Shown here: positions 5,835-29,500 of the stretch, in pieces
How positions within the stretch are numbered: position 1 is the stretch's first letter
Layout: every line of letters begins with the position of its first letter
Source of the DNA: a virus
Virus record (IMG/VR): IMGVR_UViG_3300006802_000307
Location: 1-32,127 of that record
Reading direction: 5' to 3' (one strand)
DNA length: 32,127 bases
The notes under the pieces: model-generated
What the model saw: only the letters and a program-made list of their open reading frames with translations
Databases searched by the model: none
Told to the model about the DNA's origin: nothing
Made by a program: the position numbers and the translations under genes

Positions 5835-5850
5835 TTAGTTAATAGTTAAT

Positions 5851-5884
5851 AGAGGGGAGGTCAGATTTGGTCTCCCCTCTTTCT
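5851..5884 (+). terminator. GC-rich hairpin after SSB, rho-independent terminator-like
   Basis: AGAGGGGAG (5851-5859) pairs with CTCCCCTCT (5872-5880), a 9-bp perfect stem with a 12-nt loop, followed by TTCTATT. The U tract is short. It ends 18 nt before the primase ATG, so if it terminates, the next unit needs a promoter overlapping it. Confidence 0.75.
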
Positions 5885-5898
5885 ATTAAAACTTAATT

Positions 5899-6882
5899 AT
5901 GATTTCTACTAAAAACTTAATAGGTCATATTAATGACGTACCAAGAGAATGGGTATTTGAATATTATCTTAATCTAAGAGAAAAGCTTTGCGGGCAAGAT
6001 GTAAAAATCTTATCAGTATTTAACTCAAAAGATTCTGTACCTTCAATGTTTATTTACTTTGATACAAGTTCTAATGAGTACAAGTTTAAAGATTTCTCTT
6101 CAGGATATCAGGGAGATCACATACAGCTTGTGTTGCATTTATTCAATCTTTCTGTAAGATGGAAAGCAACTTATAAGATTATTAATGACTATTCTGAATA
6201 TTTAAAAACACATAAAAGATTTGACAAAGTTGAAATAAAATTTCACAGTAAATATCAAGTATCTGATTATCAAATAAGATCCTGGAATAATCTTGATGCC
6301 AAGTACTGGACCAATTTTGGTATATCATCTAACACTCTTAAAAAATATAATGTACATCCATTAGAATTCTTTACCATGAGTAAAGAAGAAGATGGTAAAG
6401 CATATACTATTACTTCTAATAAGCATTATACATATGGTTATTTTAGAGAAGATGGAGAGTTGTTTAAGATATATATGCCTAAGAATAAAGATAAAAAGTT
6501 TATCAAGGTTCAGAATTATATTCAAGGTATGGATCAACTTACATATGATTCAGATTATCTGATTATACTATCTAGTCTAAAAGATTTAATGAGCTTTGAA
6601 GAGCTTGGTATATCTAATATAGAGAAGATTGCACCGGATAGTGAAAACAGTGTAATTCAAGAAAGTATAATCAATGATCTTAAAGAAAAATACAAAAAGA
6701 TTGTTGTTATGTTTGACAATGATGAGCCTGGCATAAAGTCTATGCAGGTGTATAATAACAAATATGATTTAAATTTTATTAATTTAAACCTATCTAAAGA
6801 TCTTTCTGATTCTGTATTAGAATTTGGAATAGACAAAGTAAAGAATGAATTATTTCCTTTATTAAAACATACTGTAAAATGA
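5899..6882 (+). CDS. DnaG-type primase with degenerate zinc-binding domain and TOPRIM domain
   Basis: A 327-aa primase that would make RNA primers for the phage fork. Residues 35-85 follow the DnaG zinc-binding fold (IL-SVFNSKDSVPSMFIYF, then YKFKDFSSGYQGDHIQLVLH and LFNLS), but the CHC2 cysteines and histidine are absent, so zinc is probably not bound. Residues 215-305 form a TOPRIM domain. LIILSSLKDLMSFEELG (221-237) replaces the usual 'EGxxD' opening, with Ser at the Glu position; APDSEN (245-250) follows; FDNDEPGIKS (272-281) is the metal-binding DxD loop; KDLSD (300-304) is the last acidic motif. At 327 aa it is much shorter than bacterial DnaG and has no helicase-interaction domain. It overlaps the next gene by 4 bp (ATGA). 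Confidence 0.87.
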   Translation: MISTKNLIGHINDVPREWVFEYYLNLREKLCGQDVKILSVFNSKDSVPSMFIYFDTSSNEYKFKDFSSGYQGDHIQLVLHLFNLSVRWKATYKIINDYSEYLKTHKRFDKVEIKFHSKYQVSDYQIRSWNNLDAKYWTNFGISSNTLKKYNVHPLEFFTMSKEEDGKAYTITSNKHYTYGYFREDGELFKIYMPKNKDKKFIKVQNYIQGMDQLTYDSDYLIILSSLKDLMSFEELGISNIEKIAPDSENSVIQESIINDLKEKYKKIVVMFDNDEPGIKSMQVYNNKYDLNFINLNLSKDLSDSVLEFGIDKVKNELFPLLKHTVK

Positions 6883-7307
6883 GTTGGATATATAACAATG
6901 TAGAATTTGAACCAAGTATGATACCTGATAAGGCTGTAGGCTTTGTCTATGAGATGTCTGCTATTATAAATGGCAAACCTGTTAAGTACATTGGTAAAAA
7001 AGCTTTTTACTCTAGAAGAAAAAAGAAGTTTTCTAAAAAGAATATGCCTACTGATCGTAGAAAAAAGAACTATGAAATAGTGGTTAAGCTTAATTATGAA
7101 AACTATTATAGCAGTAATAAAGATTTAAAAGAAGCGCACAAAAAAGGAATTCCTATAAAGCGCATTATTCTACAAATATGTTATTCCAAAACAGAATTGA
7201 CATATCAAGAAACTAAATTGCAATTTGTAAATGAGGTTCTTGAAAAAGAGGAGTATTTAAACGGAAATATTTTAGGTAGGTTTTACAAACAAATTAAAAA
7301 TGAATAA
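6879..7307 (+). CDS. GIY-YIG-like nuclease domain protein
   Basis: A 142-aa basic protein. GFVYEM (21-26) and KYIGKK (36-41) correspond to the GIY and YIG strands, with Arg46 in the following basic helix. YQETKLQF (109-116) supplies the catalytic Glu111, and YLNGNILGRF (126-135) gives the conserved Asn and the closing 'GRF' seen in phage members. This order (GIY, YIG, Arg, Glu, Asn) matches GIY-YIG endonucleases, although GIY is altered to GFVY. Possible roles are branched-DNA processing, a homing-type enzyme or host DNA degradation. No second DNA-binding domain is present. It overlaps the primase by 4 bp and the next gene by 8 bp, so it is more likely a regular operon member than a recent homing insertion. 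Confidence 0.75.
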   Translation: MSWIYNNVEFEPSMIPDKAVGFVYEMSAIINGKPVKYIGKKAFYSRRKKKFSKKNMPTDRRKKNYEIVVKLNYENYYSSNKDLKEAHKKGIPIKRIILQICYSKTELTYQETKLQFVNEVLEKEEYLNGNILGRFYKQIKNE

Positions 7308-7641
7308 TAAACAGTACGAAGAGTTTACTGCAAAATTAATTGCAGAAGGAATCCATTATATTATTGGAACATTCTCTGGCTCAGGAGACAGTGGATATAT
7401 AGAAGATTATACTTTTTTAGATAAGAATGAAGAGTTAATAGATACTAATTTTGAAGTAGTACATAATACAAATGAGTTTGAGTCATTTATTACTAATTAC
7501 ATTTCAGATTATGATTGGTGGAATAATGACGGTGGTTACGGAACTTTTAAAGTTGACTTAAAAGAAAACAAGATAAACACTGATTATTATATAGCTGAAA
7601 TAACATATCAAGAGTTTAATGAATCTAAAAATATAATTTAA
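7300..7641 (+). CDS. DUF6878-like small acidic protein
   Basis: A 113-aa acidic protein. The features I recognise are the FSGSGDSGYIE segment (25-35) and DWWNNDGGYGTFKVDLKENK (72-91), which match the 'GxGDSG...W...nDGgyGxfxxdvxxxxi' layout of DUF6878-type proteins in phages and bacteria. The family assignment is from memory. No catalytic residues are known to me. In this window it opens a run that also contains a DUF6915-like gene, a metallopeptidase-like/VWA gene and a MoxR-type ATPase, so it may be an accessory of that system. Its start overlaps the previous stop by 8 bp, and TAATG couples it to the next gene. Confidence 0.72.
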   Translation: MNNKQYEEFTAKLIAEGIHYIIGTFSGSGDSGYIEDYTFLDKNEELIDTNFEVVHNTNEFESFITNYISDYDWWNNDGGYGTFKVDLKENKINTDYYIAEITYQEFNESKNII

Positions 7642-7982
7642 TGTCACATCCTATTCAACATGCTAAATCTTCTGCTAAAAAGTTTGGTGGTGTGTGGCAA
7701 GATTATATTCATATTCACGAATGGTTTGATGAAACTAAAGCTTGGTATGGACATGCTAAGCACAGAATGTTCAGACACCATAGTGAAGGTATATTTGAAT
7801 GTGAGAAAAGATTTGGTAAAACAATGATTAATTCTGAAAACAAGACTGTATATACAAGATATGTTGGTGAACAACATGTTAGAGAGGACTGTAATAATTA
7901 TATACCTTCTGCTAAAGAATGGGTGGATAATCTTACTGAGCCTAAAGAATGGATGCTTAGAACATTAAAATTAGATGATTAA
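7641..7982 (+). CDS. DUF6915-like protein
   Basis: A 113-aa protein strongly resembling the DUF6915 pattern as I remember it: HPIQHAKSSAKKFGGVWQDY (3-22), IHEWFDETKAWYGHAKHRMF (25-44), RHHSEGIFECEKRFG (45-59), then RYVGEQHVREDCNNYIPSAK (73-92) and EW. It is rich in conserved His (H3, H7, H24, H26, H38, H41, H46, H47, H79), which could bind metal, though no function is established to my knowledge. It is cytoplasmic with no signal peptide. It is coupled by TAATG to both neighbours. Its presence beside a MoxR/VWA pair and the DUF6878-like gene suggests a shared pathway, which is inference only. Confidence 0.8.
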   Translation: MSHPIQHAKSSAKKFGGVWQDYIHIHEWFDETKAWYGHAKHRMFRHHSEGIFECEKRFGKTMINSENKTVYTRYVGEQHVREDCNNYIPSAKEWVDNLTEPKEWMLRTLKLDD

Positions 7983-8365
7983 TGACATTTGATGAAGTTA
8001 AAAGATTAGCAGATTTGCTATCTAATAGTGAAGAAGATTTTACAATTGGATTAGAAAGCTTTAGACATTATCATAAAAGTGGTGAGCTAAACAGTGATAT
8101 TGTAGCTTATATTGCATATCAACGTTATTGGAACGGAAAAAGAAGTAACGGTATTTCTGCAGAATTTGATAATTTTCTAAAAGAGTATGACATAGCTCCT
8201 GATAAAGGAATATTTAAAACTCCTCTTTTAAATAAATTAATCAGATCTAAAGATGATAATTTAAGAGAGTTTGCAGAAAAAGAAATACTTCAAGCACTGT
8301 ATCTTATGTGCAATTATTATGATTTAAGTAAATATGAAATTAAATTAGTTAGAAATGAAATCTGA
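7982..8365 (+). CDS. Small paralogue with 'LLSNSEED' motif
   Basis: A 127-aa unrecognised protein. The N-terminus (MTFDEVKRLADLLSNSEEDF then TIGLESFRHY) is the same helical phrase found in the products of 8-310, 8355-8666 and 11349-12494: an acidic start, a Leu-rich helix, Ser/Asn, an acidic 'DEDN'-like knot and a second helix 'xxGLExF'. The rest (AYIAYQRYWNGKRSNGISAE, then EKEILQALYLMCNYYDLSKY) is predicted helical with many aromatic residues. It overlaps the following paralogue by 11 bp. Two paralogues side by side suggest tandem duplication followed by strong divergence. Function is unknown. Confidence 0.78.
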   Translation: MTFDEVKRLADLLSNSEEDFTIGLESFRHYHKSGELNSDIVAYIAYQRYWNGKRSNGISAEFDNFLKEYDIAPDKGIFKTPLLNKLIRSKDDNLREFAEKEILQALYLMCNYYDLSKYEIKLVRNEI

Positions 8366-8666
8366 TTTCACAAAAGAAGAATGGGAGAACTTGTATGCTA
8401 TGGCTACTTCTAAAGATGAAGGAAACAAATTCTTAGCATTAGAGATGCTCAAAGATACAAAAAATGAGGCAGACCTTGTATTGTATGATTTTCTTAAAGA
8501 TGTAGGTAATAGTGATACCAGAATAATGGGAAAACTATCTAATCTTGATGATATAAAACTATGTGAATTTATATTAGGCAAGTTTTTAATGATGAAAATG
8601 CAATGGTATTTTTCATTTAGTTCTTTTAAGGCAGAATCTATTACAGTAAAATTAAAAGAGAGATGA
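8355..8666 (+). CDS. Small paralogue with 'TSKDEGN' motif
   Basis: A 103-aa unrecognised protein. Residues 4-34 (FTKEEWENLYAMATSKDEGN followed by KFLALEMLKDT) repeat the motif of the preceding gene, with Leu-rich helix, Ser, acidic knot and second helix. The central part (LVLYDFLKDVGN) and C-terminal part (FSFSSFKAESITVKLKER) are not familiar to me. Its start lies within the end of the preceding paralogue (11-bp overlap) and its TGA overlaps the ATG of the metallopeptidase/VWA gene (ATGA). Translation is therefore probably coupled to that gene, which suggests roughly matched amounts and perhaps a shared complex. Confidence 0.72.
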   Translation: MKSDFTKEEWENLYAMATSKDEGNKFLALEMLKDTKNEADLVLYDFLKDVGNSDTRIMGKLSNLDDIKLCEFILGKFLMMKMQWYFSFSSFKAESITVKLKER

Positions 8667-9889
8667 GTAAAGAAATTAGTTTAAGTAAGATCAGTAAAGA
8701 TCTTATTCTGAAAGAGCCCTTTTACGGGTTCTTTCTTATTATGTTGAATAAAGTTTGGAGAAAAGATGTTCCTACAGCAGGTGTGTCTAAGAATGGTATT
8801 AATTACCAACTTGCAATCAATGAAGAGTTTTGGAATTCTTTAAGTGATGACCATAAAACAGGTTTACTTAAGCACGAGCTATTACATATAGCATATTTTC
8901 ATTTAACTAAAGTGTTTGAATTTCCTGACAGAAAGCTTGCTAATATAGCAATGGATATGGAAATCAATCAATATATTGATGATAGCTTACTTCCTGAAGG
9001 CGGTATAGATATAAAAAATTATCCTGAGCTAAATCTAGATGAAAGAGCAGGTACCAGATATTATTATGAAGAGCTTCAAAAAGCTAGAGATAAAAAGAAT
9101 AAGAATGGTACTTCAGGCTGTCCTAATTGGGATAATATGTGTGATGCTTTAGATAATGGAAATCCTTCTGCTATTTGTCAAACAGGATCAGGTCAAGAAG
9201 AAACTCAGATTCCAGGACATGGGACTTGGGAAGAGTTTGAAAATCTTCCTGAAGCTGAAAAGAAGATTATGGAAAAGCAGTTAGCTAAAGTTCTTAATGA
9301 AGTTTCTAAACAAACTGAAAAATCTAGAGGTACTATACCAGGATCAATCAAAGATTGGTTACTAGAAATGGATAAGTTAGAACCAGCTAAGTTTAATTGG
9401 AAAGCTTATCTAAGAAGATTTACCGGAACTTCTACAAAGATTTTTACTAAGAAACTTAGAAGAAAGGAAAACAAAAGATTTGCTGATAATCCAGGTCTTA
9501 AGATTAAAAAGAAACAAAGGCTTCTTCTTGCTATAGATACTTCAGGTTCTGTATGTGATGAAGAACTTAAAGAGTTTATGAATGAGATTCATCATATCTA
9601 TAAAATGGGTATTGAGGTCACTGTTATTCAGTGTGACACAACCATTAGATCTATTGATGAGTATAAAGGAGATTTGCAAATTAATATTGCAGGTAGAGGC
9701 GGAACCATGTTTGATCCTGTCTTAGAATATTTTAATGAAAACTATAAAAAGTTTACAAGCTTAATTTATTTTACAGATGGTGAGGCTCCTGCAAATGTAA
9801 AACCTAGAAACAGAATGTTATGGGTTTTGTCAGAGCGGTCATATATGAATGATACTTTACCAGGTCATGTAATAAGATTAGAATTATGA
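8663..9889 (+). CDS. Metallopeptidase-like/VWA-domain protein (DUF2201 type)
   Basis: A 408-aa two-domain protein. The N-terminal part has a zincin-type HELLHIAYFH (71-80), with a later conserved MDMEINQYIDD helix (98-107) as in the DUF2201_N putative metallopeptidase domain. A Gly/Cys-containing linker (150-180) and basic helical region follow. The C-terminal VWA domain has MIDAS-like elements: DTSGSV (292-297), GRGGTMFDP (344-352) and YFTDGEAP (369-376). In known MoxR-VWA pairs, the VWA protein binds targets and the AAA ATPase remodels them or helps metal loading. Here the MoxR gene follows after one small zinc-ribbon gene, so a working pair is likely. An unusual stable hairpin lies at codons 17-24 (8711-8734). 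It overlaps the next gene by 4 bp. Confidence 0.88.
   Translation: MSKEISLSKISKDLILKEPFYGFFLIMLNKVWRKDVPTAGVSKNGINYQLAINEEFWNSLSDDHKTGLLKHELLHIAYFHLTKVFEFPDRKLANIAMDMEINQYIDDSLLPEGGIDIKNYPELNLDERAGTRYYYEELQKARDKKNKNGTSGCPNWDNMCDALDNGNPSAICQTGSGQEETQIPGHGTWEEFENLPEAEKKIMEKQLAKVLNEVSKQTEKSRGTIPGSIKDWLLEMDKLEPAKFNWKAYLRRFTGTSTKIFTKKLRRKENKRFADNPGLKIKKKQRLLLAIDTSGSVCDEELKEFMNEIHHIYKMGIEVTVIQCDTTIRSIDEYKGDLQINIAGRGGTMFDPVLEYFNENYKKFTSLIYFTDGEAPANVKPRNRMLWVLSERSYMNDTLPGHVIRLEL
8711..8734 (+). promoter_or_regulatory. Hairpin inside the start of the VWA gene
   Basis: AAAGAGCCC (8711-8719) pairs with GGGTTCTTT (8726-8734), a 9-bp stem with one G-U pair and a 6-nt loop TTTTAC, followed by CTTATTATG. 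It sits about 48 nt inside the coding region. The shape is like an intrinsic terminator with a poor U tract, so it could act as an attenuator or an mRNA processing site. It could also be chance from codons KEPFYGFF. Confidence 0.35.
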
Positions 9890-10077
9890 TTTGTTGTATA
9901 TGTAGCAAAGAATTTGATGAATTTGAAAAAGTAGAACTTGCTGGCCAAGAATGGATAGCTTATAGCGGACATAATCCTTCTCCTGTTAAAGAAGAAGGAA
10001 GATGTTGTTCTGATTGCAATTATAAGGTAGTTATACCTGAAAGAATGAAAAGAATTTATAACCAACAAAAAAAGTAA
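9886..10077 (+). CDS. Small zinc-ribbon protein
   Basis: A 63-aa protein with two cysteine pairs: C3-x-x-C6 (with an extra C4) near the N-terminus and C41-x-x-C44 (with C40) in GRCCSDCNYKVVIPERM. This is the usual four-cysteine zinc ribbon separated by about 35 residues. The 'GRCCxDCNxxVVxxRM' ending is familiar from small phage proteins, but no biochemical role is known to me. It lies between the VWA and MoxR genes, overlapping the first by 4 bp and ending one base before the second, so it is probably produced with them. It could be an adaptor or a metal-handling partner; this is inference. Confidence 0.8.
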   Translation: MICCICSKEFDEFEKVELAGQEWIAYSGHNPSPVKEEGRCCSDCNYKVVIPERMKRIYNQQKK

Positions 10078-10078
10078 C

Positions 10079-11248
10079 ATGAGTCAAGTAGAATTAAACA
10101 TTGATGAATTAAAGGATTTTATGAAGCATATGGTTAGCAATAACCAACATATTCAAAAAGAAGGTAAGGTACCTGTTTCTGTAAATGTAGAGGGTGAAGC
10201 CGGTCTTGGTAAAACTTCATCTATTATCCAACTTGCCCAAGAATTAAACTTTGATGTAGAGAAAATAAATCTATCACAGATAGAAGAGTTAGGTGACCTT
10301 GTAGGTTTTCCTGTAAAAGAATATCAGATACAAAATAAAGAGGGGCAAACTAAATGGATTGCAGAACCTCAACTTGCTGCAGCTACTAAAGCTGGATTTA
10401 AAGTAGTTGATAAAAGAATGACACATGCTGTTCCTGAATGGATTCAAGGTAAAACTGAAGGTGGCTTCTTAATTCTTGATGACTACACTCGTGCAGACCC
10501 AAGATTTATGCAAGCTACTATGGAATTAATAGATAGACAAGAATATATTTCTTGGAAATTACCTAAGAACTGGCATATTATTCTTACAACTAATCCAGAT
10601 AATGGTGACTATAATGTAACATCACTTGACATAGCTCAGAAAACAAGATTTATTTCTGTTGATATCAAGTTTGATGCTAAAGTATGGTCACGTTGGGCAG
10701 AAAAAGCAAACATTGACGGTAGATGTATTAACTTTCTATTGATGAATCCAGAGGTAATTAGTAAAGATGTTAATCCTAGATCTATTACTACTTTCTTTAA
10801 TGCAATTAGTTCTATTCCTAAGTTTGAAGATCAGCTAGGCTTAATTCAAATGATAGGTGAAGGATCAATTGGCTCTGATGCAGCATCAATGTTTACTTTA
10901 TTTATTAATAATCAATTAGATAAAATTATTTCTCCTGAAGATATTATGACTAAAGATGAGACTTATGTACTAGGTGCTCTTAATAGTTGTGTAGGAAAAG
11001 GAGATGACTTTAGAGCTGATATTAGTAGTATACTAGCTACTCGTGTTATTAATTATTCTTTAACCCTTGCTGAAAAAGGCAGTGTAGGTAAAGATATTAT
11101 TGACCGATTAATTAAGTTACTTACTGATTGTGATTCTTTCACAACAGATCTTAAGTATTATATGATTAAAGAGATTGTTAACGGTAACAAAGTTAAGTTT
11201 GCTAAGCTCATGACTCATCCTGATGTGGTGAAGATGGCTGTAAAGTAA
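10079..11248 (+). CDS. MoxR-like AAA+ ATPase
   Basis: A 389-aa AAA+ protein. Walker A is GEAGLGKTSS (39-48). Between Walker A and B there is the long insertion with FPVKEYQIQNKEGQTKWIAE typical of MoxR-type ATPases that sense an exposed beta-hairpin. Walker B is GGFLILDDYTRADP (128-141), with Asp-Asp where most AAA+ proteins have Asp-Glu. Sensor 1 is ILTTNPDNGDY (168-178). RFISVDIKFDAKVWSRWAEK (199 onward) leads to the lid domain. MoxR ATPases act as chaperones together with a VWA protein, which is encoded just upstream. In a phage the client is unknown. The gene ends the 5899-11248 unit and is followed by a hairpin at 11304. Confidence 0.88.
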   Translation: MSQVELNIDELKDFMKHMVSNNQHIQKEGKVPVSVNVEGEAGLGKTSSIIQLAQELNFDVEKINLSQIEELGDLVGFPVKEYQIQNKEGQTKWIAEPQLAAATKAGFKVVDKRMTHAVPEWIQGKTEGGFLILDDYTRADPRFMQATMELIDRQEYISWKLPKNWHIILTTNPDNGDYNVTSLDIAQKTRFISVDIKFDAKVWSRWAEKANIDGRCINFLLMNPEVISKDVNPRSITTFFNAISSIPKFEDQLGLIQMIGEGSIGSDAASMFTLFINNQLDKIISPEDIMTKDETYVLGALNSCVGKGDDFRADISSILATRVINYSLTLAEKGSVGKDIIDRLIKLLTDCDSFTTDLKYYMIKEIVNGNKVKFAKLMTHPDVVKMAVK

Positions 11249-11303
11249 ATCAACATAAAACAGTTACCCTTTTATAAAAACAATAATATAAGTTTAACCA
11301 GTG
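11249..11303. other. Short AT-rich spacer before hairpin
   Basis: These 55 bases between the MoxR stop and the hairpin hold no ORF. AT-rich runs such as TTTTATAAAAACAATAATATA could hold a promoter for the following unit, but I see no clear TTG/TAnnTTTG pair. Confidence 0.3.
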
Positions 11304-11330
11304 ATAAGGGGAGGATAAAACTCCCCTTAT
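11304..11330 (+). terminator. Perfect 10-bp hairpin between transcription units
   Basis: ATAAGGGGAG (11304-11313) pairs perfectly with CTCCCCTTAT (11321-11330) around a 7-nt loop GATAAAA. The following sequence (TGCATATAATAAAATTTTATG) has no real U tract, so it may be a transcript end-protecting or processing hairpin rather than a full intrinsic terminator. It ends 18 nt before the next ATG. Confidence 0.6.
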
Positions 11331-11348
11331 TGCATATAATAAAATTTT

Positions 11349-12494
11349 ATGAGTAAGATAGTTTATATAAATCTTTCATTTAATTACAAAGATAAAGAAC
11401 TTGAACTTCAGATACTTTCTGATCAGTTAACATATATTGAAAATACAGAAGAGCTGAAAGAATTAAAGAAAAAATTTAATGAACCAATAACTGATTATAG
11501 TTTAGAACTTAAAGATAATTTGTATTTCTTACCAGGAACAAATGTTCCTAGATCTAAACTAAAAGAAACTCACTCTAATCTAAACATCAAATCTACTAGA
11601 GATATTACAACTGCTACTAAAATAATCAGTGGTCGGAACTCTATGGATGCAATGTTTGAGCATACTTATGGTAGATTTATAAAAGTAAGTTTCTTTCAAA
11701 AGCTGATTACTATATTTCAAGAGTTGGATTATGATATATATAATCTTACAGAAGTAAATGATTTACTAGAAGATTATGAAAATGACTACATAAGAGTTAA
11801 TTATTTTAACTTTTTGAACCAAAATGCTTTTGAAAAAGATTTCATTAAAAAATATCCTCAAGAACTTTTTGACAAAATTAGAGATATAGCCACAAGCAAA
11901 AGTTCAAAGTGGTACTATAAATTAAAGACAAATAAATTCTCTGAAGAAGACCTTGAAGACTTCTTGAAAGCTGACATATATAGTGATAAAACTATTTTAG
12001 CAGGTATAAATGGTGATGACTCTGTAGAGATTGATGAAGAAGTGTTTGATAATCTTAAAAAGATGCTTGGTAGTTTAGATGAAGACAACCATACTGTAGC
12101 TGCAGAAATTATGGCTAATTGTAATTACGAAGATTCTGCCGGGTATTTACTTTGCTTATTACGTGATTATGATTATGCTTTGGGTGGCTGTAAAGGTTCA
12201 AAACATGTAAATTACAGAAGCTTTCTTTCTTATTTTGATCATAACCACAGATATGGTTTGGATACACTAAGTCTTTATAATAAATTAGAAGCTACAGGTA
12301 ACTTTAATCTAAAGCAAGTTAAAATTATTTTTGAAGCTTACATTCATGAATTAACTCGTCCATCTAATAGATATGCTCTAGTAAGTGAAATAAGACTTTC
12401 AAAAGATGCAGCTGATAAAATTGGTTATGATTTAATTTATGATACAGAATCAGAAACAACAAAAGTAATAGCGCATGAACAACAACCCGCCTGA
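11349..12494 (+). CDS. Large unknown protein containing a copy of the small-paralogue motif
   Basis: A 381-aa protein with no family I can name. The N-terminal 70 residues look mixed alpha/beta. Residues 81-110 contain STRDITTATKIISGRNSMDA, a conserved-looking phrase. Residues 120-215 are Asp/Tyr-rich and helical. Residues 228-262 (EIDEEVFDNLKKMLGSLDED then NHTVAAEIMANCNYE) clearly repeat the motif of 8-310, 7982-8365 and 8355-8666, here as an internal domain followed by a helical C-terminal region (AGYLLCLLRDYDYALGGCKG, then YGLDTLSLYNKLEATGNFNL). It starts the third unit of the plus block after the hairpin and overlaps the nuclease gene by 20 bp, suggesting a link with DNA recombination. 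Function is unknown. Confidence 0.82.
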   Translation: MSKIVYINLSFNYKDKELELQILSDQLTYIENTEELKELKKKFNEPITDYSLELKDNLYFLPGTNVPRSKLKETHSNLNIKSTRDITTATKIISGRNSMDAMFEHTYGRFIKVSFFQKLITIFQELDYDIYNLTEVNDLLEDYENDYIRVNYFNFLNQNAFEKDFIKKYPQELFDKIRDIATSKSSKWYYKLKTNKFSEEDLEDFLKADIYSDKTILAGINGDDSVEIDEEVFDNLKKMLGSLDEDNHTVAAEIMANCNYEDSAGYLLCLLRDYDYALGGCKGSKHVNYRSFLSYFDHNHRYGLDTLSLYNKLEATGNFNLKQVKIIFEAYIHELTRPSNRYALVSEIRLSKDAADKIGYDLIYDTESETTKVIAHEQQPA

Positions 12495-14455: not shown

Positions 14456-14470
14456 CAAAGAGTGATAGAG

Positions 14471-14503
14471 AAGAGGGAGTGTTTGTGAATGCTCCCTCTT
14501 TTT
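14471..14503 (+). terminator. Intrinsic terminator-like hairpin before DNA polymerase
   Basis: AAGAGGGAG (14471-14479) pairs with CTCCCTCTT (14492-14500) around a 12-nt loop, followed by TTTCTTTAATT, giving a five-T run with the end of the stem. It begins 15 nt after the previous stop and ends about 20-23 nt before the DNA polymerase ATG. A GTG at 14479 that would extend the polymerase ORF lies inside this stem, which argues against that start. Confidence 0.78.
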
Positions 14504-14523
14504 CTTTAATTAAACATTTTACT

Positions 14524-17773: not shown

Positions 17774-17802
17774 GGGGTAGCTTCGGCTACCCCTTTTTTT
17801 TT
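17774..17802 (+). terminator. Strong rho-independent terminator with TTCG loop
   Basis: GGGGTAGC (17774-17781) pairs perfectly with GCTACCCC (17786-17793) around a TTCG tetraloop, followed by nine T (17794-17802). This is the clearest intrinsic terminator in the window, after the DNA polymerase/DUF932 unit. A reverse transcript would lack the U tract, so it acts on the plus strand. Confidence 0.95.
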
Positions 17803-18579: not shown

Positions 18580-21500
18580 TTAGAGTCTTTCAGAATTTAG
18601 TTTGAGACTTTTGATTAAGCTTTCCGGATCTCCTGTACCTCCTGTAAAACCAACAGTTTTAAACAACCTTTTCCATATTTTTAAAGTACCTTTTTCTTGC
18701 CACCAATACGGACCTGTGTCTCGCTTATATCTTACTGCATCATCATTACCAGTAAGTATATTAAGAACATCACCAAAGATTTGGAAGTATAGGGTCAGAG
18801 TATTATAGAATGCTGATGTATTACTTGTAAGCATTTTATTATATTCATCTAAACCAAAGTTTATTCCTAATATTTTAGGTAAAGGAATAAATGTAGAAGT
18901 CTCTGCCTGCACTCCCATAAGTAAAAGAAGCATATGGTTTGACATGAATCCCCAAGTTCTAAATTCATCTGTACCTAAAGCACCTGATTTTTCTTTTAGT
19001 TTTTTCCATTTATCTGGATCATCATCATAGAATCCAAAGAGCATAGAGAAAAGCAAAGACATAGCAACAGTAAACAATCCTTCCGCAGTGGTTTTAATAA
19101 CAGCTGCCTTTTCTTTTGGAGAAAGCATACTGTACTTAACTCCTTTATTAACAAGGACTTTGTATAAAGCTTGGAAAGCACTGATATAATAACCTTTAGT
19201 ATAAGTATTGGTTGCCCAATCATATCTATATCCTCCAAAGTTTTCTTTATCTGTAGCCATCCCAAATCTATTAACAAACATTGGAGTAAACCATTTTCTC
19301 ATAAAGAAGAACATTCTGTATCCTATATACTTGTTACCTTCAGGTTGTCCAAAGTCATCATATGCACCATACAATCTTCTAGAAACTCCTTGAATTTTAT
19401 TCTTAAGTGCTTTAAACTTTTCTGAACGTGCAATTATAATTTCTTCCTGATCATCTAATTGAGTTTCAGATTTAATATTGTTACGTTGTTCTAATTCAGA
19501 TCTTGTAACATTATATTTCTTAGCTATCTCATCTAATGTTTCACCTTTAGTATATATATGCTTAACTGTTGTACTTCCCCAAGCAGGATCTATACCTGGT
19601 TTTAGTCTAGCTATTCCATTCTCATCTGTTTCCCAAGCATCCATATATCTAATAGATTTTACAGTACCATCAGATAATACTTGATCTATTTTTTCAGCAT
19701 GTAGAAAAGCAAAAAATAACTGAAGAGCTACTTCCATTTCCCCAAACTTACGATGCATATACATCCATTCACCATTTATTAAATCTTTTACAACACTTCT
19801 TGTAACAGAACCTCCTAATTGTGATCTTTTAGCATCTGCAGTTTTAAATATAGGATCCAGCATAATAATTAGCTGAGAAGTTAAAGTTTCAGGACCTACT
19901 GCATATATATCTTTTGATGACCAATTCATCATTGCTTTAGCAGCAGTAACTCTAGCAAGAGCTAAATCCTTCAAAGTAATAAACTCACCTCCTGCAGCTT
20001 CTATAATGTTGTTAACCCACTGACCACCTCTGTTCTTTAAATCAGATGGAATATTAACAGCAAGGGAAGCTCTAGATGAAATCTTTTGTATACTAGTTAA
20101 TGATGCTGCAAGAGTAGGTGCATATTCTCCAATACTTTGAAACTTAACTCCAAAGTATTCTCTTTCTATTAATGATCTAAGCTGCCCAGCTCTATTATAA
20201 GTAGAAGTTTTCTTGTTTGGTCTCTTTAATTGATTAGCCATTGTAAAAGCATCTCTTCTATAAGCATCCATATTTTTAGGTTGGTTATCAGGATTCTCTA
20301 AAGTAGATAAGAGAGCTTGAACCATACCTAAACTTTCATTCAATTTAGACTGTCTTGTGAGTGATGTGGCATAAGTGAAGATACCCTCCAAGATATCAGC
20401 ACTAACTTGTTCTTTTTCTAAACGGTATATACCACTTACAGGGATATAAGAAACTTGATTACCATCTAGATCTGTATTAACTAAGTTATTTTTTACATCA
20501 TAGTTGAAGTCATTCTCAACATTGACTACTGATCTACCAATAGCTTGTTTACCTTTTTCTATGATTGCCTCTTTAATTTGTTTGAATCTATCCAAACCTT
20601 TACCGGCTTGTATAGTTTCTAAAACATCATTAACAGCATATCTTGGAACATCTAAATACAATCTTGCATAAACACTCTTTCCTTTTTGCATCTCTAGATG
20701 AAATTCTTTGATAGCTTCTAGAAGTTGATACTCAGCAGTATTAGCCTTTTTCATCTCCATGTATCTTTTATTTACAAATCTATCATCTATAGCACTGTTA
20801 GGATTTCCTGGCTCATAAGGTCTTGGTAAAAAGTTACCCTTATTATCAATAACCTTACCTACAAATTTTTCTTTAGACTCACCAAAAGGAATAGTTCTGT
20901 ATTCATTCTTAACTCTTTGTATTGAATGTCTTGAATTTGGAGTTCCTTCTAATACAATTTCTTTATTAGTTTCAGGATCTATAATGGTAGTAGTCTTTAT
21001 AAAGTTTTTATTTGTTGGTATCTTATAAGTATTTGCTCTAGAAGGAATGTAATACTTTATATACTTTTTCTTCTTTTTGTCATATCTATAAGTATAAACA
21101 TGATTTCTGTCAAACCACTTTTTAAAGTTCTTATCTTTATCCAGTAACTCAAAAAACTCATCTGAATTAATAAGATCTTGTACTTCACTTTCTTTAGCTT
21201 CTTTAGCTTTTACTTTAGATAAGTTATAACTTAGTTGATCCATGTAATATTCTGTAGGAACAGTATTAGATAAACTTGATAGTTCAGAAAGAATTGAATT
21301 AAATTCAAGTGCTTCTGCAGAACTTAATCCGTCTACTTTCTGTTTTTCAATTAACTTAACATACTCTTCTTTTTGAGTATCTGTTAATTCAGAAGTTTTA
21401 AGCTTTTGATTTAAGTCATTTAATCTGTCAAGTTCTTCTCTTGTTAATCCTGATTGAATATTAAAGTTGTGTTGGAAGTCTATAATATTTTGCTGAATCT

Positions 21501-24500
21501 CTTGAATATCTTTAACTCTTTTAGAACCTAGTGCTTCATTGTCTGGTTGACCATAAGAATCTTTAAAAGATATAAGTAAGTCTGTAATTCTTTTATAACC
21601 ATCAGCTGGGTTAAAATCATACTTATCTGCAACTTTATCTTGCAGCTCATTGAGTCTAGTAAATAATCTATTTAATTCAGAATAATATTCATCAGAATAT
21701 GTCATTCTGAGATTTATTTTTTTCCATTCAGCTATTCTCTGATCCCATTCACCATCTGTCTTTGTCAAACCTTCTCCTCTTAAACTATTTACAAATTCTG
21801 TGTATGAAGTTTGAAGAGATCCTTCTAATGGAACATATTCATAAAACTTTCTAGTTTGCTTTCTATGTTCTATTAGAATCTTAGCTTTAGTAAGGTCATA
21901 AATACCATTTTCCGGATCATCTATTTTAGGTGACCCATCTTCATAAGATAAAGAATATAATTGTTGATAAGCTCTAAATTTTGCTTCTATAGTAGAATAG
22001 TTCTGAAGTCTTTCTAGCTCATTATTAAACTTATTGTTTTCAAGATTATATTCATCTAATGCGTTTTGTCTATCTAACCAAGCTTCTTTTGCTATGGGTG
22101 AAGATTCAAATATCTCATCCTTTTCATAATACTCAGGAACATATTCTCTCCACATGTAGTTATCTCTAAACTCTTTTAATTCTGCAAAGGCTTTTCTTAT
22201 AGCATCTTTATCTCCAGAGTCTCTAGCTTCTTTTAATGCATATTCTAATCTATCTTCTTCAAATCTCCAACCATTACCAAACTCATTTAAAAAAGTATAT
22301 ACTTCAAAAGCTTTTGCCTCTCCTGTTTTTTGATCTGCAACAAATACTTTGTCTATATCTGTTAGCATATCTCTAAGTTGCTGAGTGTTTAACTTATTAA
22401 ATCCAACTTTAGGAAGTAACTTAGCAAGAGTTAATCTAAATGCTTTAGAAGCCTCATATACTTCCATATCAGCTTCTCTTTTTCTATCTTCTATAAAGAC
22501 TGAAACAGGACCTACTATGATGTCATCTGATGATGAATAAGATTCTAAGTATCTATTAAACCAACTAACGTCTCTTGTTTCTCCTTGTAAAGTACTTTGA
22601 ATTTTTTCAGCAGTTATAACAAAAGTATCATACTCTTTTATATAATCTTTTAGGAGTTTTTCATTTACACCTTTTTTAAGAACTGCTTTAAGATCTTCTT
22701 CAGTAAGCTTTTGCTGTATAGCCTTATCATAAAATTCTTTAAACTCTTCATCTGTTAGATTATCTTTCATTATGCCAGAAAGATTTTCCTTAAATGTATT
22801 TGAGACATACTGATTCATTAAGCCTGTTATTTCACTAATAAAATACTCAGAGCTTTTATGATATATCTTATCTATGTTTTGCTGAATTTGAGATATGTTA
22901 CTTTCTATTTCAGATACAGTTTTGTAAAAAATACTAGATGTTACACCTTCAGGAGTCCCTTGTGTAATATCATTGATATTCTTAATCATATTTTTCCAGG
23001 CAGTAATTTGACTTGTATATAGACCTAGTAAGTGTATAATAGATCTATCATTAATGTCTCTCCTTTTTAATATGTTTTTGGTAACAAGATTAATCTCTTT
23101 AGCTGATATGTTGATAGTATCAAGTGATGTTATTATGGCTATAGAAGCTTTGGTTATTTCATTTAATCTTCTTTCTTCTGCATCTAGAACCTCATCTATA
23201 ATTTGGTCTTTATTCTTATTGTTAGTAGAAATAGTTTCATAACTAGAAAGACCTTTTTTTACTCCCGGTGCTAATTGAGTAGTTCCTTTTTGGAACATAC
23301 TTTCTTCAACCCATTTACGGATTTTTTTATTCTTTCTAAACTCTTTAGCCATTTTTAATACGGCATCATTACCAGAGTATATGCTATTAACTATTTTAAT
23401 AACACCTTCTGCAGAAGATAGTTCTCTTAATTGCTGAGCTCTTTCATTTACTAATCTTGCATAAGCAACTAAATCAGTGTCTTGTAATTTAAACTGATCA
23501 AACTCAAAAGCTTCATTTAAATATTTTTCTGCAAGTTCAGTAAGTGTAGTGTTTACATCAAGATCTTTAATGCTATTTTTAGTTTTAAAAATTTTCTTAA
23601 AAGCTTTCTTTATTAAATACAATGCTTTCTGCACCCAGTTTTTAAATTCTTTAGTTCCTTGCTCTTCTTTTAATTTTAAAGTAGCTTCATGCTGTAGACC
23701 AAACACTAGTGCTTCTTCTTTAAATCTATCTGTTCCTTCAGAAAGTTCTGAATAATGAGTCTTAAGCATATTAATAATTGCCTCACCCTCAGAAGTAGAT
23801 TTTAATAGATTGTACAAGTTTGTAAAGAGTTCTGGATTTTCTGAACGTATTGCTCTAAACAAAGGGTGCCCAAATTCGTGTAATACAGAATTTGTACTAA
23901 CTCTATCTGCTATAAAGTATAAGATTCCTCCATAATAAAAAGCAGGTTCTCCTTTATAAGGTATATCTGAGTTCTTCAGAATCTCTTTAGCTTCTTCTTG
24001 ACTTATTTTAACATAAGCAGTCTTCAAAGATTTAGAGAATCTTGTTAATAGTTTATTAGCAATATCTTTAGAATAGTTATCATTTAGAATATCCAGGTTT
24101 ATATCTAAAAGTTGAAGAACTTCTGGATAACTAGTCTCTCTATAAAAACTTGGATCAGAAAGACTTTTGTTTACAAATTCCTTAAACTCTTCTATATTTT
24201 TTTCTTTTTGTTGTGGAGTTATTTGATTAGTATTTTCATTAGGAATAAATCTATTATAATCCCAAATATCTTTGTATCTAGCCCAATCTAATTTTGCATT
24301 AAATGTATCTTTCCAATTAGCTAGTGAAATTGTGTAACCTTCCTTTGTAGTATAACTAAAAGGATCATTTCTATTCATTTTTTTGTAGTTATTGTAAATG
24401 AAAAAGTCAATTACTTTTCCTTCTACACCTTCAACTATCTCTTGACCTTCAACGTTTCTATAAGTTCCTACAATCTTACCATTTTTATCTACAACATTAT

Positions 24501-26484
24501 AAGAATCAATAATAGTCTTTACAACACCTTTACCATCAATGTATTTATTTACTTTATAGTCTTTAATGCTATGACCTTCAGGAGCAATTATATATGAATC
24601 TGTTCTATAGTTATCATTTTCAGAAATTGTTCTTACAAATATAGCATCTGGATAAACTTTTAGAAATTTAGATATAGTATCTTCTAATGTAAAAGGACTA
24701 ATCCAATCTATATCATGTAATGGATTTTCATCAGGTCTATAAATTGTTCCTTGTTCAGCTAATGAAGTACTACCTGTAAGAATAAAACCTAATTTAGCTA
24801 ACCTTTTTACTATTGAAGCTCCAAATTCATCTTTACTTAAAGCTTCTTCTAGAGATACTTGTGATACTGGTTTACCTATAGCTCCTGGTTTATATAATGA
24901 TGCGGTTACTAATTTTTTATTTTGTTGTAAAATATTATTGGTAATGATACCAATATTAGTATTAATTAGCTCTACATTTACTTTTGCAACAATATTGAAA
25001 AACTTTTTAATTAACTGTTTAATTAGATTTAATAATGAAACAGAGTTCTTTTTATTAATTTTATTTTGTAGATCTTCAGCAATTAGTTCCCCAATAAGTT
25101 TAAAGTATTTGCTCTTACTTAAACCTTTATAATCATCTGTTTTAGATAATTCAACTATAATATCTTTTATAAGATTATTATGTTGCATCATGTAAGCAAT
25201 GAATTCTCCTGCTAATGGAGCAATGCTTTCTTTATCTTTGGTATAAATAATTTTAGATAGCATATCAGCAAACCCAAATTCATCAATACCAATTCTAGAT
25301 TTCATTTCATTGATATCTTTTACAGTAATTCCAAATCCAGATAAATATGTTTGTAAAACTGCTGATGCATCTTTACCAGCTTTTTCTATTAATTCTCCTT
25401 TTATTTCAACAGGTGTATAACGCAGTTTTTGTGAATTATTATACTCATTTATATCTTTAGCTGAAAGATCTTTTAACGCCTTACCAAAAACTTTTATAGA
25501 TACATTAGGATTGGATACGGCCAGATATTTAAGCATATCTTCTCCTTTAAAATTATAATCAAAACTTTGAGTGCTTAAACTATAACCACTTCTTTTGTAT
25601 TTATTTGCAACATCTATAGGTACAAAAGAAGCGAAATCTATACCTTGCTTTACTAATGTTGGTAAAGCTTCTGCTAATAATTCTTTAGATGAAGGAGAAG
25701 AATTTAATCTTGTAATAAATACCGCGTTATCAGCATCATATTGTCCAAATATATAGGTATCTTTATAATTAAAAACTTGATAGGAACTTAATAAATTTTT
25801 AAATACATCTTTAGATATTTCTTTACCCTTTCTAGCTCTTCCCATTAAAGCAACATAGTTATTATATATCTGATCAATTTGCTCATCTGTTATATTGGGA
25901 ATTAACTCGTAAATTGTAGAAGCAATATTAGTTGAAGATTTTTCAGGTGTTTTACCTCCTTCTTCTAAATATTTAGCGTAAACCTTTATGGCTGTGACTC
26001 TTTGCTCTTGAGCCATATTCATAAGATCAACAACTTGATATTTATACCTTTGAGTATCATCCATAAAGCCTAATATAGAATAAACCTGTGATGCAAAGTT
26101 CATATCTGAGTCAAGCATTTCTGCCACAGCAGTTTCTGTCTCAAAACTAACTGGTGTATTAATGTTGTTAGTATTTTCCAAAAGCTCTTTTTGAGTTAAT
26201 AACTCATTTAGCTTTTCAAATAGATAAGTTTTTGGTTCAGCAAAATATATTTTCTTCTTATCAGTTCTTCTATAAGAAGTTTTAGCATATTCTTTTTCTA
26301 CTAAATTTGTATCAAACAACAGTTCTCCTTCAGTATCTAAATTATATACGCTTTGAGCATATTTAGTATATGCTTTATTAAACTGATCAAATCTATCTCT
26401 GTTACTGATAATTCTAACTTCATCAATAATACCTAACTTTTTTAGGCTATCTAAAGCATTTTGCTGAGTATCACAAGCTGACAT
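18580..26484 (-). CDS. Giant polyvalent-type virion protein with NTase-like, zincin-like and LysM-like regions
   Basis: A 2634-aa protein without signal peptide. Regions in order: helical N-terminus; PolyVal-like segment with FIAYMMQHN; nucleotidyltransferase-like GSTSLAEQG (571-579), HDIDW (590-594) and VIDFF (about 691-695); zincin-like HEFGH (869-873) with a downstream KEEALVF (922-928), whose Glu could be the third metal ligand; more than 1200 residues of mainly helical, charged sequence; a LysM-like module (about 2309-2352, TKGETLDEIAKKYNVTRSEL); and a C-terminal region with a hydrophobic stretch (about 2469-2485) near RMFFFMRKWFTP. The combination resembles large polyvalent proteins injected with phage DNA, in which such domains modify host components. 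It lies one base after the RNA polymerase stop (TAG-T-ATG), so both are co-expressed and probably co-packaged. Domain calls are by motif only. Confidence 0.8.
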   Translation of the reverse strand: MSACDTQQNALDSLKKLGIIDEVRIISNRDRFDQFNKAYTKYAQSVYNLDTEGELLFDTNLVEKEYAKTSYRRTDKKKIYFAEPKTYLFEKLNELLTQKELLENTNNINTPVSFETETAVAEMLDSDMNFASQVYSILGFMDDTQRYKYQVVDLMNMAQEQRVTAIKVYAKYLEEGGKTPEKSSTNIASTIYELIPNITDEQIDQIYNNYVALMGRARKGKEISKDVFKNLLSSYQVFNYKDTYIFGQYDADNAVFITRLNSSPSSKELLAEALPTLVKQGIDFASFVPIDVANKYKRSGYSLSTQSFDYNFKGEDMLKYLAVSNPNVSIKVFGKALKDLSAKDINEYNNSQKLRYTPVEIKGELIEKAGKDASAVLQTYLSGFGITVKDINEMKSRIGIDEFGFADMLSKIIYTKDKESIAPLAGEFIAYMMQHNNLIKDIIVELSKTDDYKGLSKSKYFKLIGELIAEDLQNKINKKNSVSLLNLIKQLIKKFFNIVAKVNVELINTNIGIITNNILQQNKKLVTASLYKPGAIGKPVSQVSLEEALSKDEFGASIVKRLAKLGFILTGSTSLAEQGTIYRPDENPLHDIDWISPFTLEDTISKFLKVYPDAIFVRTISENDNYRTDSYIIAPEGHSIKDYKVNKYIDGKGVVKTIIDSYNVVDKNGKIVGTYRNVEGQEIVEGVEGKVIDFFIYNNYKKMNRNDPFSYTTKEGYTISLANWKDTFNAKLDWARYKDIWDYNRFIPNENTNQITPQQKEKNIEEFKEFVNKSLSDPSFYRETSYPEVLQLLDINLDILNDNYSKDIANKLLTRFSKSLKTAYVKISQEEAKEILKNSDIPYKGEPAFYYGGILYFIADRVSTNSVLHEFGHPLFRAIRSENPELFTNLYNLLKSTSEGEAIINMLKTHYSELSEGTDRFKEEALVFGLQHEATLKLKEEQGTKEFKNWVQKALYLIKKAFKKIFKTKNSIKDLDVNTTLTELAEKYLNEAFEFDQFKLQDTDLVAYARLVNERAQQLRELSSAEGVIKIVNSIYSGNDAVLKMAKEFRKNKKIRKWVEESMFQKGTTQLAPGVKKGLSSYETISTNNKNKDQIIDEVLDAEERRLNEITKASIAIITSLDTINISAKEINLVTKNILKRRDINDRSIIHLLGLYTSQITAWKNMIKNINDITQGTPEGVTSSIFYKTVSEIESNISQIQQNIDKIYHKSSEYFISEITGLMNQYVSNTFKENLSGIMKDNLTDEEFKEFYDKAIQQKLTEEDLKAVLKKGVNEKLLKDYIKEYDTFVITAEKIQSTLQGETRDVSWFNRYLESYSSSDDIIVGPVSVFIEDRKREADMEVYEASKAFRLTLAKLLPKVGFNKLNTQQLRDMLTDIDKVFVADQKTGEAKAFEVYTFLNEFGNGWRFEEDRLEYALKEARDSGDKDAIRKAFAELKEFRDNYMWREYVPEYYEKDEIFESSPIAKEAWLDRQNALDEYNLENNKFNNELERLQNYSTIEAKFRAYQQLYSLSYEDGSPKIDDPENGIYDLTKAKILIEHRKQTRKFYEYVPLEGSLQTSYTEFVNSLRGEGLTKTDGEWDQRIAEWKKINLRMTYSDEYYSELNRLFTRLNELQDKVADKYDFNPADGYKRITDLLISFKDSYGQPDNEALGSKRVKDIQEIQQNIIDFQHNFNIQSGLTREELDRLNDLNQKLKTSELTDTQKEEYVKLIEKQKVDGLSSAEALEFNSILSELSSLSNTVPTEYYMDQLSYNLSKVKAKEAKESEVQDLINSDEFFELLDKDKNFKKWFDRNHVYTYRYDKKKKKYIKYYIPSRANTYKIPTNKNFIKTTTIIDPETNKEIVLEGTPNSRHSIQRVKNEYRTIPFGESKEKFVGKVIDNKGNFLPRPYEPGNPNSAIDDRFVNKRYMEMKKANTAEYQLLEAIKEFHLEMQKGKSVYARLYLDVPRYAVNDVLETIQAGKGLDRFKQIKEAIIEKGKQAIGRSVVNVENDFNYDVKNNLVNTDLDGNQVSYIPVSGIYRLEKEQVSADILEGIFTYATSLTRQSKLNESLGMVQALLSTLENPDNQPKNMDAYRRDAFTMANQLKRPNKKTSTYNRAGQLRSLIEREYFGVKFQSIGEYAPTLAASLTSIQKISSRASLAVNIPSDLKNRGGQWVNNIIEAAGGEFITLKDLALARVTAAKAMMNWSSKDIYAVGPETLTSQLIIMLDPIFKTADAKRSQLGGSVTRSVVKDLINGEWMYMHRKFGEMEVALQLFFAFLHAEKIDQVLSDGTVKSIRYMDAWETDENGIARLKPGIDPAWGSTTVKHIYTKGETLDEIAKKYNVTRSELEQRNNIKSETQLDDQEEIIIARSEKFKALKNKIQGVSRRLYGAYDDFGQPEGNKYIGYRMFFFMRKWFTPMFVNRFGMATDKENFGGYRYDWATNTYTKGYYISAFQALYKVLVNKGVKYSMLSPKEKAAVIKTTAEGLFTVAMSLLFSMLFGFYDDDPDKWKKLKEKSGALGTDEFRTWGFMSNHMLLLLMGVQAETSTFIPLPKILGINFGLDEYNKMLTSNTSAFYNTLTLYFQIFGDVLNILTGNDDAVRYKRDTGPYWWQEKGTLKIWKRLFKTVGFTGGTGDPESLIKSLKLNSERL

Positions 26485-26500
26485 ACTATTTACATTTAAA
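26485..26500 (-). repeat. Short repeat before the second giant gene (copy 1)
   Basis: On the minus strand TTTAAATGTA followed by AATAGT leads into the ATG at 26484. TTTAAATGTA also occurs just before the RNA polymerase ATG (32102-32111), and TAAATAGTA occurs both here (26484-26492) and at 32119-32127. Part of it codes for the end of the RNA polymerase, so it may be a translation-leader or promoter motif, or coincidence. Confidence 0.35.
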
Positions 26501-29500
26501 CGGATCTTCTTCCAGCTCCATCATTATTTCTATTTCCTCATCTGTAATTGGTTCTACAGATTTTACTAATTCATTAAAACTATCAAACTCTAAAGATCCA
26601 GGATTCAGATATCCAAATTCTTCATAAAGCCTCTTAGATAAATATACAAATAATTCTTCAGGCATAAGCTTAGGATCACCATACCCTACTGTTGAAAATG
26701 CTATAGGTAAGTTTTGTTCTAATCTAGCTTTCATTTCATCAATTCTTCTCTCCCACAAACCTTTTATTGAATTAAATTTATCAGGACTTAAGTCTTGCAT
26801 GTTATCATTCTTCTTCAACATGTCTGTAGGAAGAGATATGTTTCCGGCAGAATCTGCATAATGTAATGCTGACTGACCACCAAATACTTTTAAAGTATCT
26901 TCTTTAAGACCAAGAATAGGTATTGAATATACCATAGCCACATCAGAGTTATCTTTTGATACTGTTTTGTATGTATCATTATTCCATTTAGAATCATTAA
27001 ACTCATAAATGTTTTCTCTTGAAGTTGTGCTTATACCAACTCTTTTAGTTTCTTCATCAACCACTTCAAGTTTTAGCTTTGATAAGTAATCTTTAAAATT
27101 ATTTTTAGTATAGTTATAAGAACTGTTAACTGTCATAAAACTAGCCATATACTCTTCCATTACAGTTTCAGGATTACTTTCTAAGGCGTTGATAAACTTC
27201 TTAGACTCTTGAGTCATCATGCTTAAAAAGTCTGACATATCTAACACTTTCATTAAGTTATACTTAGTGTTATTAAAACCTGTCTGCATAAACCCTACTA
27301 AAGGAAGTAGTCTAAAGAACTCTGATATCTCTAGATTCTCTTGAGGATCTGAAGATTTGATTACAGTAATATCAGCTAAGTCTTTAAGATTTTTTCTATA
27401 AAGATTTGATGTAGTACTTGTTAAATCTTTGTCTCCAAAGAATATATTAAATACTGTGTTCTTAGAATTAGAATCTAAAGTTAACCAGTTTAGAACTTCA
27501 TATTCTGATTTTAGATTTTTATTCTTTAAAAGTATATTGTTAAGCTTAACTGCATAAGCACTTTCTTTATTTTCAAATAACTGATGCGGATTAAGTAAGT
27601 TTTCTAGTGCTCTTTCAGCAATAAACTTCTCATATACATATCTAGCTTTCTTTTCTTTAGATAGATCTTTTATCTCATCTAAAAGTAAATCTGCTTTAAC
27701 TGACGGTCTCTGAAGAACTTCCTCAAAAGAATAAATACTTCTGAGCAATTCTCTTTCTATGACAAAATTTAAGAACTCTGCTCTACCCTCATTCTTATCT
27801 TTCAAAAATACACCATAGTCCACGGCATACAAACCTCTATTTAGATAAGAGTTTGGTTCATCAGTATCTTTAGCCCAAAGCTTTTTATCATAATCTTTCT
27901 TTATTTGCTTTCTATCAACATACATTACTACGTTTCCACTTGCATCTTTAACTGCAAAAGCTCCAGTCTTCTTTAACTCTTTAGCTAATTTTACAGGAAC
28001 AGTCTCTTTTAAAGTATAAGACTTATAAGACTCTCCCATTTTATACTTACGTACAGCATTTTGGAAAATATAAGATACTAAATCGTTTCTAAAGGTTTTA
28101 ACAAAAAGCTCTTTTTGACTTTCTCCAAAAGTTTCTTTAGCTAAATCATAAAGTTGATTTTTATTTTGGATTAAGAAAGATGTTATTTCCGGATGGAATC
28201 TTAATTGGAAAAGTGTTTTACTCAAATCCAAAGCAAGTTTTCCATTAAAGAATGAACTAATTACTGAATCAGTCTCTAATGCTTTTAATAAATCTTGATC
28301 AATCTTAGATTCATACAATAATTCATCTAAGTTAGCTTCAGTTTCTTCAACAGCATATATATTAGATTTAGTACTAGTATCAGGATTAGTATTCATTTTT
28401 AACTTAGTTAATCCTGAGATTTGCTGCTCTATAGTAAGGTAATGCAAGAACATTGTTTTAGACAAGTCAGATCCTGCAACTTCTTCATCTGTTTTAAAAT
28501 CTTTTATTAGCTGATACATTTCATCTGTAGTAAACTCAGACTTTTCTCTATCTTCAAAAAATTCAGTTTGTGAACTTTCAAATAGATCATATCTAGCAAA
28601 AGTTTTAAGTTTTTGTAATTTAGGATCAATGTACTTAGCTAAAACATTATTAGCAGATACATGCCTTACTAAACCTAAACTAGAAGGCTTTTTACCTAAG
28701 ACATCTGCAAAAGTTGATTTAGCAAGTCTTTGTTCTTCTACATATTTTCTTACAAGAGGTTGTGATACAAAGTATATAGCATCCTTTACAGGAACTCCTG
28801 TTTTAATAAGATATAATAATACTGGAGCCACTTCATAGTTACCCTGAATGAAAAATATCCAAGCGTCTTTTTCTACGTCCACCCAACCATTCATCATTTG
28901 AGAAATGATATCTGCTATTTTATTTTCATTATTAGCATCATATCTACTAGCAATTGAAATAACTTCTTTGCCATTCTTAACTACAGAATTGTGTTTTAAG
29001 AATAGTCTGCTCATTCTTAGTTGCTTTTTGACTCCTGATACATGGAAATACGAGTTAGGCATTGTTGCACCACCAGGAATATTTAAAGAGTTAATCAAAG
29101 AATGGAATGTGTTTTCAATAGCTCCTAAACCTAAAGTCTTTTTACCTACTACATTTGACTCATGCTTATATAAGTTATACCCAGCCTCTATAATTCTTGT
29201 AGGACTGATAATTCTTTTTTGCTTACCGTCTTCATCAAGAGGTGTAACATTTTCTTGAGTCATTTTATTTTTCAATGGATTGTAATCCATTACATACTGA
29301 GCTAAATCATCTGCTATATCCTTTAATAGATAAATACCGTTAGGTTTTATCAGGGATACAAAGTTTTGAGGTAATGCTAATATATTTCTCATATCATCTA
29401 TTAGCTCATTTTCCAAACCTGCCTTTTGCATCTCAAATAAGAAATCAGTATTCTCTTCAAGCTCTAGTAAGGTATTTAACTCTTCTTCAAACTCTTCCAT

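Follow-up and report, generated by a model that had tools for sequence, protein, structure and literature searches.

A candidate three-part module of MoxR ATPase, zincin-VWA protein and helical-repeat partner among the replication genes of a crAss-like phage

NorQ/NorD, RavA/ViaA and CoxD/CoxE resemble the phage locus described here in pairing a MoxR ring with a VWA cochaperone; to our knowledge, none of them carries an N-terminal zincin domain. For NorQ/NorD, the VWA protein has been found to enter the pore of the MoxR ring, with remodelling driven by the ATPase (PMC13036017). A viral example is provided by ATV, in which the MoxR protein p618 and the VWA protein p892 bind each other and p892 stimulates the ATPase (PMC4124505); however, this pair lacks a peptidase domain, and p618 is present in the virion. 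The pairing of MoxR with a metallopeptidase-vWA protein has been described in jumbo phages by Iyer and others, who suggested that it serves in the virion; the pair of group 2.2 jumbo phages has the same two-protein architecture as ours and was reported without a third partner (PMC7824862). In phage AR9, g028 and g029 encode an AAA ATPase and a 'zincin-like protease fused to vWA domain', which are adjacent as in our locus but occur in the opposite gene order and belong to a distant clade. Phage N4 likewise has a MoxR-type ATPase beside a zincin-VWA protein, gp24/gp25, both of which are matched by the profiles and are core, middle genes of the N4-like phages (Schitoviridae) (PMC4193335). The N4 pair differs in its order, MoxR preceding VWA, in falling into another clade and in that no repeat-domain partner was seen. 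Given these precedents, the pair of MoxR and zincin-VWA proteins is itself already known in phages. We found no literature report of its client, and the main text of the CRISPRi-ART paper does not mention N4 gp24/25.

We analysed a 32,127-base virus record from IMG/VR (the window). Judged by its sequence, the source is an uncultured crAss-like phage, because the second of a pair of giant ORFs on the minus strand (2634 and 1870 aa; 18580-32098) matches crAss-like RNA polymerases. This 1870-aa ORF contains GADFDIDKL, and the matches listed for it come from crAss-like phages or unclassified faecal contigs, with E values down to 1e-23 and no named group other than crAss-like phages among them. Within the 32-kb record, we recognised no capsid, portal or terminase of Crassvirales. 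The plus-strand genes end at a classical intrinsic terminator (17774-17793, GGGGTAGC-TTCG-GCTACCCC-T9) that faces the giant ORFs. Primase, nuclease and polymerase genes surround the locus of interest, the upstream neighbours being a Toprim primase-like protein (5899-6882, plus strand; Pfam, PHROGs) and a GIY-YIG SegE-like endonuclease (6879-7307, plus strand; Pfam). Domain calls are profile-based throughout, and ORFs on contigs were called mechanically.

A sequence-only reading of the window had grouped seven plus-strand ORFs downstream of the endonuclease, and these are indeed present at 7300-7641, 7641-7982, 7982-8365, 8355-8666, 8663-9889, 9886-10077 and 10079-11248, neighbours overlapping by 1-11 bases or lying 1 base apart. 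The first two belong to DUF6878 and DUF6915, as proposed (Pfam E 3e-9 and 1e-40, respectively), and a PHROGs search of the window genes returned families 8143, 1314 and 1297.

The central protein of the locus (8663-9889, PHROG 1314) had been read as a HELLH motif joined to a VWA domain, which the Pfam matches to DUF2201_N (PF13203, E 1e-15) and DUF2201 (PF09967, E 4e-18) bear out; both exceed the curated cut-off (66.1 versus 26.4 and 58.5 versus 23.2 bits), and Pfam describes the former as a putative metallopeptidase and the latter as VWA-like. Alignment of 73 phage and bacterial sequences places the HELLH zincin motif at residues 71-75 (8873-8887) and the DTSGS of the VWA MIDAS at residues 292-296 (9536-9550). 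Invariant residues are H71, E72, H75, H80, N94, A96, D98 and N102 in the zincin domain and D292, S294, S296, D325 and D372 in the MIDAS, where T348 is conserved in more than 90% of sequences. These invariant residues make proteolysis by the zincin domain plausible, and we would guess that D98 or H80 serves as the third zinc ligand. The AlphaFold model has a mean pLDDT of 88.9, and its C-terminal half is recognised by Foldseek as a VWA fold, while the zincin half gave one borderline profile match in the PDB, to MJ1213 (E 0.005). PHROG 1314 and RefSeq phage annotation label this family, N4 gp25 included, 'HNH endonuclease'. We rejected this label for the window protein, as no HNH family occurs among its Pfam matches up to an E value of 1.

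The last of the seven ORFs (10079-11248, PHROG 1297) encodes a MoxR-class AAA+ ATPase (Pfam AAA_5, E 2e-4), whose profile matches midasin best in the PDB (E 7e-34), followed by NorQ (E 8e-7) and CobS (E 4e-5). Across 265 sequences, there is little or no variation in the Walker A motif (GEAGLGKT, residues 39-46, 10193-10216), Walker B (acidic pair DD at 10478-10483), sensor 1, arginine finger and sensor 2. A hexameric AAA+ ring is predicted. As the second Walker B acid, the crAss-like lineage and 20 of 61 bacteria have aspartate, whereas the named phages and the remaining 41 bacteria have glutamate; the Schitoviridae member tested has DE where the window has DD. Between the VWA and MoxR genes, the proposed zinc ribbon exists as a short Cys-rich ORF of CxxC type (9886-10077), but it occurs only in some branches (10 of 154 loci, and in addition at L406, L407, L408, L412, L413 and L414).

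MoxR and the zincin-VWA protein form a genuinely co-inherited pair, adjacent in unrelated phages and bacteria far beyond chance. Where VWA has at least 3 kb of sequence on either side, a homologue of MoxR is found no more than 3 kb away at 87 of 87 crAss-like, 46 of 46 other viral, 6 of 6 named-phage and 41 of 47 bacterial loci, the viral loci containing near-duplicates, so that the counts are not independent; beyond this distance, about 1,200 kb of flanking sequence gave zero MoxR matches. The named phages with the pair (AR9, Thermus phiFa, S-TIM54, AD45-P4, Moorella MTATph1 and Pseudomonas Ab09) differ greatly in hosts and genome sizes. phiKT1024 has a MoxR relative, with no VWA detected beside it. 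One viral contig carries an in-frame fusion of the full-length zincin-VWA and MoxR proteins in a single 786-aa ORF (L235:2593-4950), and the two are jointly absent from another contig, discussed below.

This tight association does not extend to the first two genes of the block, which come and go apart from the pair. With both block ends in hand, 32 loci have the module and neither DUF6878 (7300-7641) nor DUF6915 (7641-7982), and both DUFs are found without the pair in Streptomyces phages and plasmids. Co-occurrence in other phages and bacteria thus holds for MoxR and VWA but not for the DUF proteins, and this two-way dissociation rules out the seven genes as one functional set. As for the wider distribution of these families, DUF6915 of Streptomyces phages lies near a gene for a Ro-like RNA-binding protein (L162), and plasmid records contain DUF6915 in 224 cases and DUF6878 in 19, mostly on conjugative plasmids of marine alphaproteobacteria.

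To avoid bias toward the pair, we also collected loci seeded on the DNA polymerase with at least 9 kb of upstream sequence (n=61). VWA, MoxR and the repeat domain described below are present in 60 of them. The exception, L404, reads SegE, DUF6878, DUF6915, Cas4-like; the small gene that precedes VWA, VWA itself, MoxR and the gene that follows it are all missing, the DUF6915 stop overlaps the Cas4-like start (TGATG), and the 58-kb record holds no other copy of the missing genes. Among the ten other relatives nearest to L404 by the Cas4-like protein, nine keep VWA, MoxR and the gene after it, with the small gene undetected, and one has all four. This joint absence and the fusion are each seen in a single contig.

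The gene after MoxR (11349-12494, plus strand), which the earlier grouping had omitted, shares a domain with the small genes upstream of VWA. These small helical-repeat-domain proteins, copy A (7982-8365) and copy B (8355-8666), had been called motif paralogues; in profile comparison they form one family, although their direct pairwise match is weak. In most relatives, the gene immediately before VWA is a member of the copy-B family, as a rule overlapping the VWA start, and a single member there is the usual state. Copy A, a duplicate of this gene, is separate only in the four nearest loci, and no small gene was detected before VWA in L406-L415. The C-terminal half of the partner encoded after MoxR is homologous to the small-gene family (hhalign 97.6%, E 3.7e-12), versus 0.08% for its N-terminal half used as a control, and the repeat domain matches the designed helical-repeat proteins 4rv1 and 4hxt. 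The N-terminal half weakly suggests a BRCT-like topology (best Foldseek E 0.07; BRCT probability 0.63 at E 0.39; PARP-1 BRCT at E 0.48), no Foldseek match of the partner being significant; Pfam and PADLOC gave no match for it. Weaker copies of the repeat domain occur at other sites in the same phages, and a small ORF at 8-310 of the window, distant from MoxR-VWA, carries the repeat motif too. The conserved set reaches 12494, and neither DUF6878 nor DUF6915 is needed for it.

Just upstream of the partner gene lies a conserved RNA hairpin (11304-11330, plus strand; z -4.6), which was found in 114 of 130 relatives versus 1 of 650 mononucleotide-shuffled gaps and has no match in Rfam. Seven of its eight base pairs vary on both sides, the loop GTAAnA is conserved, and the distance from the hairpin end to the next start is fairly steady at about 13-20 nt within a gap of variable length. 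Weaker matches to the hairpin model precede the primase (5848-5889) and polymerase (14469-14508) genes. An ordinary terminator is not the best reading, given the conserved loop, the fairly steady start distance and a window copy without a T-run; many relatives' hairpins have T-rich tails. The element could be a terminator, a processing site or a translational operator, and its position between MoxR and the partner gene may put the latter in a separate expression unit.

In both the VWA and the MoxR trees, the crAss-like viral clade is sister to a clade dominated by Bacteroidota, and the order VWA-MoxR is common to most members of the two clades. In both trees, pairs of the N4, Thermus and cyanophage types cluster with, or close to, a MoxR-VWA clade of other phyla, the places of several named phages being unsure because their branches are long. 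Transfer between Bacteroidota and their phages, in either direction, is likely on these trees. The chromosomal DUF2201-MoxR pair, found in Bacteroidota such as Cellulophaga baltica, shares the window's gene order, and in some cases a neighbouring LRR/BRCT protein has the phage repeat motif; it differs in that its partner is a large LRR protein and the phage replication context is absent. More generally, LRV/HEAT proteins flank the bacterial pairs in cyanobacteria, Deinococcota and Chloroflexota, and LRR proteins do so in Bacteroidota; in a small near/far control, repeat proteins made up 27 of 74 adjacent versus 5 of 141 distant genes (Fisher p 4e-10). When seven bacterial genomes were searched with the profile of the phage repeat domain, there were two matches, one each in two Saprospiraceae, and both sit in the MoxR-VWA cluster, as the next gene in L263, with a BRCT domain (E 6e-6) in the encoded protein as well, and as the second gene after MoxR in L270. 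Our argument for the bacterial partner is drawn from this whole-genome search, since a regular expression for the repeat motif gave only p 0.04 near versus far in Bacteroidota.

We lean towards reading window positions 7982-12494 as a three-part, ATP-driven protein-remodelling module that acts in the replication phase and is possibly proteolytic, in line with the target-remodelling machine of the sequence-only reading. By analogy with NorQ/NorD, MoxR subunits would assemble into an AAA+ ring, with the VWA domain of the zincin-VWA protein as its docking site, and the helical-repeat partner, comprising the small gene and the gene after MoxR, would recognise and present a client. ATP hydrolysis would then pull or twist the complex, and the zincin domain would cut or hold the client, during the replication phase. 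A bolder proposal, which we advance tentatively and think doubtful as it stands, is that MoxR, the zincin-VWA protein and a BRCT/helical-repeat protein constitute an undescribed ATP-dependent protease or remodeller common to Bacteroidota and their phages, acting on DNA-bound targets selected by the repeat protein.

If the pair had the virion role that has been suggested for its counterpart in group 2.2 jumbo phages (PMC7824862), it would be a chaperone-protease that folds and trims structural proteins during assembly or maturation. The binding of ATV p618, which has been assigned a role in tail development, to p892 (PMC4124505) and a virion protein gene one small gene downstream of the pair in S-TIM54 agree with this. 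We nevertheless consider it unlikely here, and a client in the replication phase is favoured because the module is encoded among replication genes. The N4 pair, too, lies upstream of the rII, helicase and DNA polymerase genes and consists of middle genes (PMC4193335), the AR9 pair follows an early promoter, and the VWA protein is absent from seven Crassvirales genomes searched (Steigviridae and Suoliviridae).

Patchy occurrence across phages, apparent gain in separate phage lines and dispensability in L404 are what one would expect of a device that takes apart or degrades a protein complex of the host in takeover or counter-defence, and ternary MoxR-VWA systems of bacteria act in conflict (PMC7159879). 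Retention in 60 of 61 loci of its own lineage is, however, high for an accessory counter-defence gene, and this explanation seems to us quite improbable. PADLOC matched no defence model to any part of the module or to the bacterial sets, so a known defence system was discarded. It is very improbable that the module inserts metal into a client, as the metal theme of the sequence-only reading implied and as NorQD does elsewhere (PMC13036017): the HExxH is part of the zincin domain PF13203, the zinc ribbon is optional, DUF6915 is separable and dispensable, and no metalloenzyme was recognised as a client candidate in the window.

Besides being core to the N4-like phages, the MoxR and zincin-VWA pair is also present in AR9, cyanophages and crAss-like phages, and N4 on E. 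coli K-12 makes it readily testable. The working unit is delimited by the natural deletion, the fusion and the partner that is shared, which together suggest the third protein as bait.
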